Source of the DNA: Chloroflexota bacterium
GTDB taxonomy: Bacteria; Chloroflexota; Anaerolineae; Anaerolineales; Villigracilaceae
Direction of reading: 5' to 3'
Length of the DNA stretch: 5,683 nt
Assembly: GCA_023484185.1 (NCBI GenBank)
Contig: JAMDBC010000159.1
Location: 1 to 5,683 of the forward strand
Positions 1,467 through 5,683 of the stretch are shown piece by piece. Under the pieces are notes generated by a model. It did not search any database and was not told where the DNA came from. It worked only from the letters and a program-made list of their open reading frames with translations. The translations under genes and the position numbers were made by a program. Each line of letters opens with the position of its first letter. Positions within the stretch are counted from its first letter, which is position 1.

Positions 1467-4274
1467 TTATTTCTTTTCTCTTTCCCACAGTTCCCTTGCA
1501 ATCATCTCCTGATCCACAGGCGTCTTATCAATCCGCACACCGACAGCATTATAAATTGCGTTGGTAATCGCAGGCGTGGTCGGGATACTGCATATCTCCC
1601 CCACTCCTTTTGCGCCGTAGGGACCTTCAGCGGTGGGATGTTCAACGATAATAGAAGTGATCTCTGGCGTTAGCATGATGCCAGGGACGCGGTAGCGGGC
1701 GAGATGATCGGTAACTACGTTGCCGTTGTCCATAATGAATTCTTCGGTGAGACAGTTGCCGAGGCCCATCATCACGCCGCCTTCGATCTGTCCCTGCAAG
1801 CCAAGCGGGTTGACCGCCATGCCCACATCGTTGGCGGAAATGACTTTCAGAACGCGGACTTCGCCCGTCAGTTTATTGACTTCCACTTCAGCGGCCTGCA
1901 CGCCATAGGAGAAGGCAAAGTGCATGTCACCGCCTGTGCCGAGGGGTTGGGTCTTGGGCGCTTCGTATTCATAGAGGGCGCGCGGCTGTTGTTCCATTGA
2001 TTTCATTTCTTTTGCAACATCAGTGTATGTCATCGAATGTCCGTTGACATGAACAATGCCATTCTCGAATCGAATTTGTTCGGGACGCACGTCATATTTT
2101 TCAGCCATGGTAGCAGTGATCGCTTCACGCAGAGTCATTGCGGCATAGCGCGAGGCATTGCCAGTGACGAAAGTTTGGCGTGACGCAGTTGTCGGGCCGC
2201 CATTGGGAGTCAGGTCAGTGTCCATGACGAGAACGTGCACTTGTGATGGCGACACAGACATTTCTTCTGCGACGATGGTCTGCATCACGGTCACCAGTCC
2301 CTGCCCCATTTCGGCGGAGGAACTTCTCACTTCAAATTTTCCGTTGTCGTAAAGTTCAACTTCCGCGTTGGATATATCAGGCACGCCACCGCCGAGTCCT
2401 GTGTTCTTGTAAGCGGCAGCAAAGCCCCAGGCGCGCACCAGATTCGGATTGGCGGAATCCACTCGAGGGGCGAAAGGAAGCGGCGTATGCTTCCGCATTT
2501 CCGCATCAACTTTATCAATGCACTCCATCAGGCCAACCGACTCGCGCAGTTCCTGTCCCGTGTTGGTGATGCTGCCAACATGAAGAGAATTCATGCGGCG
2601 CAATTCAATGGGATCGAGATTCATTTTTTCGGCGAGCATGTCCATCATCGACTCAACCGCAAAGGCAGACTGCGTGACGCCGAAACCACGGAACGCGCCC
2701 GCAGGCGGATTGTTGGTGTACATGGCGTAACAATCGGCGCGCACGTTGGGAATATCGTATGGGCCTGCGGAGTGCGTGGTGGCGCGGGTCATCACTTTTT
2801 CGCCAAGCGACGCATACGCGCCCGTATCGCCGTACAGTTCCGTTTCAACCGCGACGAGACGGCCATTTTTCTTGGCGCCGATCTTGACGCGGATCTGCGT
2901 GGCGTGCCGCTTCGGATGCACGAGCAAACTCTCGTGGCGATCGAACAATAATTTCACGGGGCGCTGAGTCACATTGGCAAGCATGGCAACATGGATCTGC
3001 CCCATCACATCTTCCTTGCCGCCGAAGCCACCACCCATCAATTGACCAACGATGCGGATGCGCTCTTGAGGCCAACTCATCACGCGCGCAACTTGCTCCC
3101 GATCCTGATACGGAATTTGCGAGCCGACATAAATCTCCATGCGGCCATCGGGCAACGGCACACCGATACTGCATTCAGGTTCGATGAAAGCGTGATCGGT
3201 CGTGGGCGTGTGGAAGGTGTGTTCAAGGATCACATCCGCTTCGGCAAAGCCTTTATCCATGTCGCCTTTGCGGACTTTGATGTGCTTGAGCAGATTGCCC
3301 TTTTCGTGGATTTGCGGGACTCCCTCCTGCCGTGCCTGCACTGGATTCGTGATAACGGGCTGGATTTCGAACTCCGCTTCAATCAACGCCGACGCCTGCT
3401 CGGCGATCTCCTGAGTTTCCGCGGCAACGATGGCAAGCGCATCGCCCACATATCTGACGCGTTCACCAATACCGATCATCACAGGCCAATCGTAAATAAC
3501 CAGTCCATGATTCTTTTCGCCAGGGATATCGTCAGCAGTTAAAACGGCTACTACGCCTGGCAATGCTTTTGCTTTTGAAATATCCAATTTCTTCAGGAAG
3601 CCATGCGGGATCATTGCACGGCGCGCTTTGGCATACAACATGCCGTCGAACGCAAGGTCATCGGTATAGATGGCATTGCCTGTGACTTTCTCGAATCCAT
3701 CGGGTCGCAGGTTGGTATGTCCAACTGATTTATGCTCATGAATCGAATCAGGGATATGTGGTTTCCTGACAGGTTCCCCCGTTCTCAAAGATTCGGCTGC
3801 TGCGAGGATCGCATTCTCAATCGAAGGATAGCCCGCACAGCGGCAGAGTGTATCTTTCAAAGCAAAACGAACATCGTCACTGTCAGGATTCGGATTGCGC
3901 TTGAGCAAAGCATACGCGGTCATGATCTGGCCGGGGATGCAGAATCCGCATTGGGCTGCGCCGTGTTCAACAAACGCTTCCTGAAGAGGGTGGAGTCCCC
4001 CTCTCCCTAAGGGAGAGGGGGTAGGGGTGAGGGAAGACAACCCTTCGATGGTGACAATATTTTTCCCATCCGCGCGCTCGGCAGGATAGATGCACGAGAC
4101 CACAGGCTCGCCATCCACAAGGACGGTACACGCGCCGCACTCGGCCTCATCACAGCCGATCTTTGTGCCCGTAAGTCGAAGTCGCTCGCGCAGGAGGGTG
4201 GAGAGGGTTTCGCCCGCAATGGGTTCGAGAGTGTGTTTGATGCCGTTAACTGTAAGTGAGATTAGGTTGTTCAT
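1467..4274 (-). CDS. Fused [2Fe-2S] + molybdopterin-binding subunit of a xanthine dehydrogenase-type hydroxylase
   Basis: Mo-containing hydroxylase subunit of 935 residues, counted from the ATG at 4274 (MNNLISLTVNG); a GTG at 4286 would add four residues, and neither start has a strong ribosome site. Order of parts: ferredoxin-like domain with C41, C46, C49, C61; helical second [2Fe-2S] domain with C109, C112, C144, C146; then the aldehyde oxidase/xanthine dehydrogenase a/b hammerhead (about 190-300) and the Mo-cofactor domains. Cofactor motifs visible are GGGFGGKED (E421), AFRGFG (527-532), EMGQG (655-659) and GAKGVGE with the likely catalytic base E893. E421, R497 and F531 fall where bovine XDH has E802, R880 and F914, which points to a purine substrate (inference). 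The fusion lacks the FAD domain, which should come from the gene at 5465-5683. There is no CO-dehydrogenase CSFR loop, so this is not a form I CoxL. Residues 82-93 (LTPTPSPLGRGG) are an in-frame repeat insertion between the two Fe-S domains. Nicotinate or aldehyde oxidation remains possible. Confidence 0.88.
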   Translation of the reverse strand: MNNLISLTVNGIKHTLEPIAGETLSTLLRERLRLTGTKIGCDEAECGACTVLVDGEPVVSCIYPAERADGKNIVTIEGLSSLTPTPSPLGRGGLHPLQEAFVEHGAAQCGFCIPGQIMTAYALLKRNPNPDSDDVRFALKDTLCRCAGYPSIENAILAAAESLRTGEPVRKPHIPDSIHEHKSVGHTNLRPDGFEKVTGNAIYTDDLAFDGMLYAKARRAMIPHGFLKKLDISKAKALPGVVAVLTADDIPGEKNHGLVIYDWPVMIGIGERVRYVGDALAIVAAETQEIAEQASALIEAEFEIQPVITNPVQARQEGVPQIHEKGNLLKHIKVRKGDMDKGFAEADVILEHTFHTPTTDHAFIEPECSIGVPLPDGRMEIYVGSQIPYQDREQVARVMSWPQERIRIVGQLMGGGFGGKEDVMGQIHVAMLANVTQRPVKLLFDRHESLLVHPKRHATQIRVKIGAKKNGRLVAVETELYGDTGAYASLGEKVMTRATTHSAGPYDIPNVRADCYAMYTNNPPAGAFRGFGVTQSAFAVESMMDMLAEKMNLDPIELRRMNSLHVGSITNTGQELRESVGLMECIDKVDAEMRKHTPLPFAPRVDSANPNLVRAWGFAAAYKNTGLGGGVPDISNAEVELYDNGKFEVRSSSAEMGQGLVTVMQTIVAEEMSVSPSQVHVLVMDTDLTPNGGPTTASRQTFVTGNASRYAAMTLREAITATMAEKYDVRPEQIRFENGIVHVNGHSMTYTDVAKEMKSMEQQPRALYEYEAPKTQPLGTGGDMHFAFSYGVQAAEVEVNKLTGEVRVLKVISANDVGMAVNPLGLQGQIEGGVMMGLGNCLTEEFIMDNGNVVTDHLARYRVPGIMLTPEITSIIVEHPTAEGPYGAKGVGEICSIPTTPAITNAIYNAVGVRIDKTPVDQEMIARELWEREKK
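3997..4033. repeat. GC-rich palindromic repeat element inserted in frame in the large subunit gene
   Basis: A perfect inverted repeat of 12-base arms around a single central base (3997-4021, arms CCCCCTCTCCCT and AGGGAGAGGGGG) is followed by a TAGGGGTGAGGG tail (4022-4033). Read in the gene's frame it encodes LTPTPSPLGRGG, residues 82-93. Relatives normally have only a few residues between the 'IEGL' strand and 'LHPLQEAF', so about 10-12 residues are extra. From general knowledge, repeats with this CCCTCACCCC...GGGAGAGGG pattern are dispersed in many copies in some Chloroflexota and other genomes. Only one copy lies in this window, so dispersal cannot be shown here. Confidence 0.8.
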
Positions 4275-4298
4275 TGTAACCGCCACAGTGGTTTAGTG

Positions 4299-4646
4299 TC
4301 ACAAAGAAGCATCAAATTCTGTTAATCGGGTAAAGGTACCTATATTCGAAAACGGCCGCCAACCTCTTTCAATTGCAAGGCGAAATAACCACCACTCAAA
4401 ATCCCGAAAATAGATTTGATCTGATGTAAGATGAGACAAATCAGATCCGATAATTTCAATGTCATAGAGCGTGAACCGTAACGAATATTCACTTATCCAG
4501 AGCCGATTCTGTTTACCCCACTTATTACCAAATTTCTCAACAAAGAGATTCCCAAAATACTTTACTTCGAGTGAATCTGTGGACTTTATTTCGATGTGCG
4601 CATGGTCAGATTCTACAATAATTGAAAATAGGTCAACTTTTTGCAT
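4299..4646 (-). CDS. Hypothetical protein, 115 residues, AT-rich orphan
   Basis: I do not recognise the family. The predicted soluble protein has no signal peptide or membrane helix. It is rich in aromatic residues, with five tryptophans (W43, W50, W85, W86, W96), and contains segments such as 'FRDFEWWLFRLAIERGWRPF' that may form an amphipathic helix. A beta-rich first half (about 5-65) with alternating hydrophobic residues precedes it. The ATG at 4646 has a good GGAG ribosome site five bases upstream, which supports a real gene. G+C is about 39%, clearly below the 53-60% of the flanking enzyme genes, which suggests horizontal acquisition. It lies between the FAD-subunit remnant and the large molybdenum hydroxylase gene, 24 bases upstream of the latter's ATG, so it may be read with it. 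Small single-domain size and AT-richness next to a toxin-antitoxin pair would fit an orphan immunity or accessory protein, but nothing in the sequence shows this. Confidence 0.6.
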   Translation of the reverse strand: MQKVDLFSIIVESDHAHIEIKSTDSLEVKYFGNLFVEKFGNKWGKQNRLWISEYSLRFTLYDIEIIGSDLSHLTSDQIYFRDFEWWLFRLAIERGWRPFSNIGTFTRLTEFDASL

Positions 4647-4723: not shown

Positions 4724-4820
4724 TCAATTTGCTCTTTTCCATACATTTTCGAGTATTTCCCTAAATAAACCAATAACAATGTGCCGACGATAATCCGCGC
4801 TGGCACGGCGGGAGTGGAGC
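4724..4820 (-). pseudogene. Displaced 3' end of a second FAD-binding (CoxM/XdhB-like) subunit gene
   Basis: Directly after the toxin stop codon, a different frame reads RRASADYRRHIVIGLF, then REILENVWKRAN and a TGA stop (4726-4724). The intact FAD-subunit end at 5465-5683 reads RRASADYRKHIVSGLF, then KDTLKAAWERA and stop. Counting by hand, 18 of 27 aligned residues are identical without gaps, and most differences are conservative. 'RASADYR' is the conserved signature of the CO dehydrogenase flavoprotein C-terminal domain. No start codon or upstream domain is present, and a one-base deletion lies near 4813, so this piece cannot make a protein. Homology stops abruptly at 4820, at the vapC stop. 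The first third is nearly identical in DNA to the intact copy, while the rest is AT-rich and diverged. It is either the original end of the neighbouring gene, displaced by the cassette, or the stump of a tandem paralogue. Confidence 0.85.
4788..4820 (-). repeat. Direct repeat copy B (FAD-subunit 3' end), right after vapC
   Basis: This matches 5526-5559 in the same orientation with about 31 of 34 aligned positions identical, counted by hand, including an exact 19-base core at 4794-4812. It differs by two substitutions and one missing base. The repeat starts at the base following the vapC stop codon, so it marks the downstream edge of the toxin-antitoxin cassette. Confidence 0.88.
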
Positions 4821-5207
4821 CTACCAAACCACTTGGACATCATATTTCCGAATATCATCATCCACCGATAGAAGCGGCATGGATTCAACCTGGCTTTGGG
4901 CAATCAGTAATCTGTCAAATGGATCGGCATGGTGCATGGGCAATTTATAGACCTGCACAGCATGATGGATTTGTACAGGCAGGGCTTGAAACCCATGCAG
5001 GCTTATGCGACTTGAAATGTAGTGCGTGGGATCTTCTGGTAAAACGAGACGCCCACGGGCGGCTTTAATGGCAATTTCCCATGCGCTGGCAGCGCTAAGG
5101 AAGATTTCGTTACTACCATCTGCGATGATTTCCTTTGCAATAGTGGATAACTGCGAGTCATCCATATTCCACCAAAGGAATGTATGCGTGTCGAGCAGGT
5201 ATTTCAT
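4821..5207 (-). CDS. vapC: PIN-domain ribonuclease toxin, VapC family
   Basis: 128-residue PIN-domain protein, full length for the family. PIN toxins are Mg2+-dependent endoribonucleases, many of which cleave tRNA or rRNA and stop growth when free of antitoxin. Seen: strand 1 'MKYLLDTHTFLWW' with D6, 'SAWEIAIKAARGRL' with E44, 'HHADPFDRLLIAQ' with D95 and D98, and 'LLSVDDDIRKYDV' with D116. All acidic positions expected for a metal site are present, so the toxin appears active. The pattern matches the subgroup usually paired with Phd-type antitoxins. Its ATG overlaps the antitoxin stop (ATGA), and a strong GGAGGA site lies nine bases upstream inside the antitoxin gene, so the two are coupled. 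The natural C-terminus 'YDVQVVW' is intact, and the stop codon abuts the FAD-subunit remnant exactly. The RNA target cannot be read from the sequence. Confidence 0.92.
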   Translation of the reverse strand: MKYLLDTHTFLWWNMDDSQLSTIAKEIIADGSNEIFLSAASAWEIAIKAARGRLVLPEDPTHYISSRISLHGFQALPVQIHHAVQVYKLPMHHADPFDRLLIAQSQVESMPLLSVDDDIRKYDVQVVW

Positions 5208-5422
5208 ACTGCGAATTCCTCCAACGGGTCATCGAAGTTAGGCATGATGACTACCGTACCCTTGTCAATGCCTGGTTTGCGCTGGGAAACATTCGAAACC
5301 ACAGGCAAAATACGCGCAATAGGTTTCCCTGCTTTGGCAATCACTACTTCTTCGCCATTCAAAACACGTTCAAGCAGTTTTGAAAAGTGGGTTTTAGCTT
5401 CGTGAATATTGAAAATAGTCAT
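5204..5422 (-). CDS. Antitoxin of the Phd/YefM family (VapB role)
   Basis: 72-residue antitoxin that should bind and block the PIN toxin encoded just downstream and repress its own promoter. Residues 1-45 are the classic Phd/YefM DNA-binding and dimerisation domain: 'MTIFNIHEAKTHFSKLLERV', then 'LNGEEVVIAKAGKPIARILP'. The tail (about 50-72, ending 'MPNFDDPLEEFAV') is the flexible acidic and hydrophobic segment that normally wraps the toxin. The start at 5422 has an AGAGGTG ribosome site six to seven bases upstream. The stop overlaps the toxin start by four bases. The promoter and a candidate operator lie in the 42-base gap from the FAD-subunit stop codon. Family assignment is firm. The gene name is left blank because such antitoxins are called VapB, Phd or PhdA by partner. 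Confidence 0.92.
   Translation of the reverse strand: MTIFNIHEAKTHFSKLLERVLNGEEVVIAKAGKPIARILPVVSNVSQRKPGIDKGTVVIMPNFDDPLEEFAV
5217..5222 (-). promoter_or_regulatory. Strong ribosome binding site of the toxin gene inside the antitoxin gene
   Basis: GGAGGA on the minus strand, nine bases before the toxin ATG at 5207 and within the last codons of the antitoxin. Such a strong site for the toxin is notable, because antitoxins are usually made in excess. Here the difference may depend on translational coupling and antitoxin autoregulation. Confidence 0.7.
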
Positions 5423-5439
5423 TTGACACCTCTAAAGGC

Positions 5440-5468
5440 ATTGTAGACTAACCAGTGGACTAAGTCAA
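5440..5468 (-). promoter_or_regulatory. Sigma-70-like promoter of the toxin-antitoxin operon
   Basis: On the minus strand a TTGACT -35 box (5468-5463) and a TACAAT -10 box (5445-5440) are separated by exactly 17 bases, five of six matches to consensus in each box. The -35 box contains the TGA stop codon of the upstream FAD-subunit gene. The antitoxin ATG follows 17 bases after the -10 box. The toxin-antitoxin pair therefore has its own promoter in addition to any read-through. Confidence 0.72.
5444..5463. promoter_or_regulatory. Candidate antitoxin operator (direct repeat in the promoter spacer)
   Basis: TAGACTAA (5444-5451) and TGGACTAA (5456-5463) are two direct repeats differing at one base and spaced 12 bases apart, with a CCAGTGG near-palindrome around their junction. 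They fill the spacer between the -35 and -10 boxes, where a bound antitoxin or toxin-antitoxin complex would block polymerase. The operator role is inferred from the known autoregulation of Phd/VapB systems. Confidence 0.45.
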
Positions 5469-5683
5469 GCCCGTTCCCACGCGGCTTTGAGCGTATCCTT
5501 GAACAATCCACTGACGATGTGCTTGCGATAGTCCGCGCTGGCACGGCGGGCGCTGGAGCGGAATTGGGCCTGGGCTAGCAAAGCATCCAGCGCCGAGTCA
5601 AATGTTGAATCTATGAGAGATTGTCCACGCAAAATATTTTCCGCTTCGGTGGCGCGGAAGGGAGTCGCGCCGCCGGGGCCGAC
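5465..5683 (-). CDS. FAD-binding subunit of the molybdenum hydroxylase, C-terminal end (5' part outside window)
   Basis: An open frame runs from the window edge to a TGA at 5467-5465, giving the last 72 residues: VGPGGATPFRATEAENILRG at the start, then a helical stretch, then RRASADYRKHIVSGLF and KDTLKAAWERA. This is the CO dehydrogenase flavoprotein C-terminal domain found in CoxM, XdhB and related FAD subunits; the GxxxxxPxRa...aE..L.G start and the RaSAdYR signature are both visible. The subunit takes electrons from the Fe-S clusters and passes them to NAD+ or another acceptor. It should partner with the fused Fe-S/Mo subunit at 1467-4274, which lacks an FAD domain. The two genes would normally be adjacent, but a toxin-antitoxin pair, a second FAD-subunit tail and an orphan gene separate them. 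The stop codon lies within the -35 box of the toxin-antitoxin promoter. Confidence 0.88.
   Translation of the reverse strand, partial: VGPGGATPFRATEAENILRGQSLIDSTFDSALDALLAQAQFRSSARRASADYRKHIVSGLFKDTLKAAWERA
5526..5559 (-). repeat. Direct repeat copy A (within the intact FAD-subunit gene)
   Basis: Partner of the repeat at 4788-4820, with the exact 19-base core at 5532-5550. It encodes the conserved RSSARRASADYR stretch. The distance between the copies (about 738 bases) contains the FAD-subunit tail, the toxin-antitoxin promoter and both toxin-antitoxin genes. Confidence 0.88.

Follow-up and report, generated by a model that had tools for sequence, protein, structure and literature searches.

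In the window, by which we mean the whole stretch of 5,683 nucleotides that was analyzed, a predicted toxin-antitoxin pair is enclosed by two diverged copies of the 3' end of one gene, which encodes an FAD subunit. We put at about even the chances that the stretch from 4724 to 5550 was formed when a toxin-antitoxin cassette entered by homologous recombination in the FAD gene end, restoring the gene and leaving the native end behind as a relic. On the minus strand, on which the annotated genes and gene ends of the window lie, the order is the FAD-subunit gene end, a vapB-type gene, a vapC-type gene, a second FAD gene end, an open reading frame (ORF) of 115 aa, xdh, and a threonine-synthase-like gene. 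The gene end in use is the 3' part of the FAD-subunit gene (5465 to 5683), which matches PF03450 (CO_deh_flav_C) with an E value of 3e-13 and whose reading frame stops at 5465 to 5467.

A promoter-like stretch, TTGACTTAGTCCACTGGTTAGTCTACAAT (5440 to 5468), was recognized by motif match and sequence and may serve as the promoter of the cassette. Its -35-like box, TTGACT (5463 to 5468), contains the FAD stop codon, so the left edge of the cassette was taken to be this codon. The right edge lies directly behind the stop of the toxin gene. A lax form of the motif, allowing up to 5 mismatches, was present ahead of vapB at all 24 vapBC loci, the match in L101 being poor. The antitoxin gene (5204 to 5422; 72 aa; Phd/YefM family, PF02604) and the toxin gene (4821 to 5207; 128 aa; PIN domain, PF01850) overlap at 5204 to 5207, and both family matches were above the cutoff. 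This Phd/PIN pair is predicted to be a vapBC-like type II toxin-antitoxin system. As had been claimed in the first-pass annotation of the window, neither the ORF list nor the family search revealed an integrase among the reading frames of the cassette. In a plasmid search, the best vapC match was 59% and none was close, and no solved structures were found by sequence search.

The gene end is present twice. Copy 1 lies within the working FAD gene (5469 to 5550), and copy 2, probably the FAD gene end that was displaced, follows the toxin gene (4724 to 4820), in frame and with its own stop at 4724. The assignment is based on a direct repeat together with in-frame alignment. The repeat, D1 (4731 to 4812 versus 5469 to 5550), is 82 nt long and 72% identical, with a spacing of 738, and includes an exact 19-base core, TCCGCGCTGGCACGGCGGG. 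Aligned in frame, the two ends share 19 identical residues over 31 codons. The local score of the FAD end against the gap was 60, compared with a maximum of 23 for 100 mononucleotide shuffles. A second, diverged FAD gene end directly behind the vapC stop and a 19-base core repeated at a distance of about 738 bases, both noticed at first pass, were hence confirmed.

Next after copy 2 comes the 115-aa ORF (4299 to 4646), a second cargo taken from the ORF list. It matched no Pfam or NCBIfam family and had no counterpart in the other FAD-site gaps. It is followed by xdh (1467 to 4286), identified by family search as a fused 2Fe-2S/molybdopterin subunit of xanthine-dehydrogenase-like type. A palindrome (CCCCTCTCCCTAAGGGAGAGGGG) was noted in frame in xdh at 3995 to 4035, near the start of the second iron-sulfur domain, and relatives carry inserts of other lengths roughly at this position.

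The FAD-xdh junction was compared across 80 xdh relatives, in 76 of which the FAD end could be placed. The order FAD end, vapBC, FAD end was found in 3 of the 76 (L021, L029, and L033), with vapC genes 84 to 88% identical to that of the window. Behind the second FAD end, each of the three carries a different extra ORF and then xdh. In L029, a third, degenerate FAD end was discerned by eye behind a second small ORF. The vapBC pairs at the FAD site are 75 to 89% alike and the xdh genes 79 to 88%; as the two are about equally alike, old vertical descent is possible at this site. The end of xdh itself likewise flanks cargo in two loci, a DUF4160/DUF2442 pair in L027 and, in L032, DUF2281 with what looks by eye to be a broken, PIN-like toxin gene.

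Forty-three FAD-xdh gaps of at least 50 nt, including that of the window, were read for a second FAD end, and many of the other junctions hold different inserts without one. A candidate second end in L026 was rejected, its score having come only from a CCACGGAGACACGG repeat. Several junctions (L009, L014, L025, L026, L030, L035, L039, and L079) contain ORFs, which we take to be of the GxxExxY type, with CCACGGAGACACGGAGACAC-like sequences inverted on both sides; by eye, these resemble a further, independent small mobile unit. The junctions of L010, L034, and L044 have an ORF of unknown kind in common, again without a second FAD end. In L042, a partial tandem repeat, consisting of a permease-like end and the start of the FAD gene, precedes an intact FAD gene.

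The window vapC was further searched in overlapping sets of 18, 400, and 152 genomes, and 24 loci were close (E value of 1e-45 or less). Two host-gene ends flank 10 of these: three at FAD, six at the methylmalonyl-CoA mutase gene (MCM; PF01642), where the window family of vapBC lies between the gene ends of L084, L088, L089, L095, L096, and L105, and one, L106, at an ORF that matched no Pfam family. The pair in L097 is flanked by two terminator-like hairpins and that in L099 by a repeat of another kind. The remaining close loci showed no gene-end pair, including L091, which sits behind MCM. A search for further pairs between host-gene ends, suggested in the first-pass annotation, was thus fruitful at MCM, xdh, and L106, with several kinds of cargo. 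In a tree of 24 vapBC pairs (23 loci plus the window), the MCM label requires 3 changes, at least 2 of which are forced by supported branches, and the pair therefore arrived at the MCM end on more than one occasion. The FAD label requires 2 changes and is compatible with one origin at FAD. Separately, the start of a different vapBC-type operon was seen repeated behind its toxin gene (L086/L126).

The MCM gene end proved to be a hot spot. A search that used the MCM gene of one cassette locus found MCM in 143 of 152 genomes. Seventy sites were read, 30 plus 40 down the list, in which G370 and G009, already among the cassette loci, were passed over; 67 sites had at least 400 nt behind the gene. 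At a score cutoff of 54, a second MCM end was detected at 14 of these 67 sites and at 0 of 69 reverse-strand controls. L186 (score 51) was left out of the relic count, and one reverse-strand score outside the survey set exceeded the cutoff (57, in L109). Sites with recognized cargo had a second end in 11 of 15 cases, those without in 3 of 52 (Fisher P = 3e-7), an association that is descriptive because the cargo queries were drawn from these same loci. The cargo kinds comprise the window vapBC family, DUF2281/PIN, MazE-type antitoxin/PIN, DUF433 with a PemK/MazF-type toxin, DUF4177, and remnants only; second ends with cargo other than the window family, or with remnants, occur in L142, L153, L154, L163, L190, L191, L195, and L197. 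Cargo behind MCM without a second end was found in L139, L146, L177, and L192. L112 has two added MCM ends, one behind the window family and one behind another toxin, PIN-like by eye.

Relatives thus carry the layout at several genes, and a single gene end may house various toxin-antitoxin pairs. Such pairs have therefore probably spread through recombination at conserved gene ends, with no recombinase of their own. The starts of the MCM relics recur at codon -36 for at least four cargo kinds and near -24 for others. Codon -36 is also where a variable stretch of the gene has its edge, and the recurrent start may therefore in part be a detection limit. Beside the cassettes of L142, L154, L163, L173, and L195, a small hairpin element whose arms are of the CCCCCAAAT type was noticed by eye just behind the MCM stop.

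Gene-end copies were also sought without regard to cargo. In G029 (703 genes, 0.8 Mb), the scan yielded ten end copies, four of them without homology further up: MCM, a mannosyltransferase-like gene, a pair also matching mid-gene, and a 131-aa ORF. It also yielded 12 mid-gene and 6 gene-start copies, which were counted without a paralogue score. At the mannosyltransferase-like gene (contig 1, 111570 to 113093 and downstream; L243), a sulfatase lies between the gene and the copy of its end, 1,680 nt downstream. Among 1,105 genes in 100 loci, 12 non-paralogous end copies, 0 mid-gene copies, and 3 gene starts were found; 6 of the 12 end copies were in loci picked for carrying the cassette, and taken alone the scan is a weak control.

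Cassette-free relatives were used to determine which of the two ends is native. In L128, which is the same place as L110, the relic, its stop, and 392 nt downstream align in register with cassette-free L131 (84%). The relic, stop, and downstream DNA of L109 align in the same manner with cassette-free L130 (85%, 382 nt). The FAD site gave one such case, L029, in which the DNA following the third FAD end matches that behind the FAD stop of cassette-free L009 (78%, 451 nt), L026, and L025. In all three cases, it is the distal copy that is native, and a gene end entered together with the cassette. The alignment with vapBC-free relatives that had been proposed at first pass was therefore informative for part of the set: clear empty-site partners were obtained for 2 of 11 MCM loci (L128 and L109), with L190 weak, and for 1 of 5 FAD-site stretches. 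Among the relatives compared, which for MCM formed a 53-site panel that includes L139, L146, L192, and L197, no clear partner emerged for the middle end of L029 or for the FAD ends of the window, L021, and L033, nor for nine MCM loci if the weak L190 is counted with the other eight.

The strongest competitor to homologous recombination in the gene end is an insertion with long target duplication, in which the insertion itself copies the last 60 to 110 bp of the gene and the outer copy then decays. We regard this as unlikely, although several observations agree with it. Long direct repeats of the target surround the insert, and a single-copy empty site is present for L128, L109, and L029. The duplicated stretch at MCM often begins at the same codon for different cargo, and decayed relics exist (L111, L112, L153, and L173). 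Restriction-modification genes in Helicobacter pylori have the same layout in the portions of PMC1643837 and PMC3031569 that deal with them.

Comparison with nearest relatives also speaks in part for target duplication. Each end of 12 MCM loci was compared with those of the three nearest relatives in a panel of 38 MCM genes, which include L139 and L146 as cargo loci without a second gene end. The end in use was closer in 10 of the 12, by 0.003 to 0.16, the difference being largest in L111, where the relic is decayed. The relic was closer in 2 (L191 and L110), and in L191 it is 93% identical to the end of the nearest relative compared with 82% for the gene end, which argues against an outer copy made by the insertion. 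As far as such identities can tell, the result is evidence against simple displacement everywhere, though the gene end reflects kinship weakly (r = 0.35 in 703 control pairs) and relics are themselves subject to decay. For the window, mean identity to the ten nearest relatives was 0.744 for the end in use and 0.685 for the relic, in a panel that is too distant (best body identity of about 0.8) for a firm assignment. The native end of the window would thus lean to the end in use. The idea of a gene-end-restoring toxin-antitoxin cassette, as first put forward for the window, accordingly stands at the three relatives' loci with a native distal copy, whereas for the window itself the comparison leans the other way.

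The divergence between the two copies is less easily reconciled with target duplication. Over 10 loci, with L111 left out, differences at the first, second, and third codon positions numbered 38, 36, and 102 (102 of 176 at third positions; P = 3e-11 against one third). The corresponding counts were 15, 11, and 56 for MCM, a strong excess, and 22, 21, and 41 for FAD, a weaker one (P = 0.004); those for the window alone (9, 8, and 14; P = 0.18) were not significant. The third-position share reached 16 of 18 differences in L191 and 9 of 10 in L170, and among the gene ends of the 38 panel genomes it was 75%. At the FAD site, 33 codons that differ between the copies are amino acid changing and 27 are synonymous. 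The third-position excess, unexpected for an outer copy that drifts freely, suggests that the copies diverged largely as working ends in different lineages and that the outer one partly decayed later; a perfect duplicate drifting freely would fit it poorly.

Movement of the cassette is indicated by L109 and L128, two species with a near-identical cassette. The cassette is 98.0% identical over 655 nt, compared with 89.7% for the gene body, 87% for the gene end, and 84% for the relic, and the downstream DNA is unrelated. High identity extends from about 30 nt before the gene stop to about 35 nt inside the relic. Further up in the gene end, identity falls to 67% in a single 30-nt bin and then returns to 93 to 97%. 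Because the left limit of the shared block rests on this bin, the right limit is the better defined of the two. Exchange with limits that fall within the gene-end copies would be the outcome expected of homologous recombination in them. It should be noted that gene ends of 87% identity beside a cassette of 98% require different donors or later exchange to be assumed.

The same pair of loci bears on a further explanation, namely, that these are small integrative elements for which a site-specific recombinase is supplied in trans and the gene end serves as the attachment site, comparable to integrase-less relatives of such elements or to an integron-like array. Such an element would account for the restored gene end and displaced native end at the empty-site loci, for tandem accretion in L029 and L112, and for the recurrent relic start at codon -36. 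However, the block of high identity shared by L109 and L128 stops within the relic and not at its start, no motif common to the relic starts of the host genes was seen by eye, and in 16 genomes, many of whose contigs are short, no match to tyrosine recombinases (PF00589) lay close to the MCM or FAD sites. The likeness to site-specific integrative elements drawn in the first-pass annotation is not borne out by these searches, and we judge this explanation improbable. The reading that vapBC insertion mostly deleted a tandem FAD paralogue, or that gene conversion took place, had also been raised at first pass and was rejected as highly improbable: partial tandem leftovers of this operon do exist, as in L042, but no second full FAD gene stood in the place of the cassette in any of the 76 relatives (72-residue FAD end as the query), the same layout recurs at MCM, xdh, and other genes, and the empty sites carry a single gene end in register.

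If homologous recombination in the gene end is the route, the incoming gene-end copy would restore the FAD gene, and the native end would stay behind the toxin gene as a relic. Crossovers in the common gene end, of about 60 to 110 bp, would carry the cassette from cell to cell, perhaps in the form of linear DNA or of a circle excised between the two copies, and a dedicated recombinase would not be required. The pair would favor itself, its loss being punished. The first gain of a gene-end copy at a new gene would likely start with a rare insertion with long target duplication. We extend this only tentatively, and at somewhat less than even chances, to a general recombinase-free class in which toxin-antitoxin pairs lie between copies of the last 60 to 110 bp of a conserved gene that act as portable homology arms, and in which they hop between species, restore the gene, and stack into arrays. 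Accretion is seen in the three FAD ends of L029 and the two added MCM ends of L112.

Chromosomal toxin-antitoxin pairs are common, and their movement in the absence of transposases and integrases calls for an explanation. Gene ends, if they are portable homology arms, would offer a simple and testable route for the spread of these pairs between species. Such a route would also account for toxin-antitoxin pairs that stand behind metabolic genes without breaking them, and the displaced gene ends would be relics from which the history of insertion could be read.

Integrative elements are known to enter the 3' ends of tRNA or protein genes, to bring a replacement end, and to displace the native one. 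The loci described here are alike in that a replacement gene end is carried and the native one displaced, but the insert has no integrase, its cargo is a single operon, and no fixed core is shown. In homology-facilitated illegitimate recombination, one arm is homologous and the other joint forms without homology. One arm in the gene would likewise leave a remnant of the native gene end, but relic starts that recur immediately after the cargo would not be expected from this process. In a search of titles, outside which most subscription journals lie, none was found on toxin-antitoxin pairs between duplicated gene ends. The first-pass statement that such cassettes are not a named class therefore holds for toxin-antitoxin pairs in this layout, but a named relative exists in insertion with long target duplication.

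Toxin-antitoxin cassettes of integrons are discussed in PMC2654758, where Nobusato et al. (2000) are cited for restriction-modification systems. Judged by the sections of that article on such cassettes, integron arrays resemble the present loci in having a promoter-like stretch of their own, in being separated by repeats, and in accretion (L029 and L112); here, however, the repeat is a coding gene end that differs by host gene, and the arrays seen are short. The closest known kind is restriction-modification genes inserted with long target duplication, as described from comparisons of Helicobacter pylori and other genomes (PMC1643837 and PMC3031569, citing Nobusato et al. 2000, Gene 259:99). 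As presented there, both involve an addiction-type complex, a small insert, and long direct copies of the target. The loci analyzed here differ in that most of the cargo consists of toxin-antitoxin pairs, what is duplicated is the 3' end of a gene, the copies show a third-position excess, and the outer copy is native at three loci. They carry over to toxin-antitoxin pairs what had earlier been observed for restriction-modification genes.
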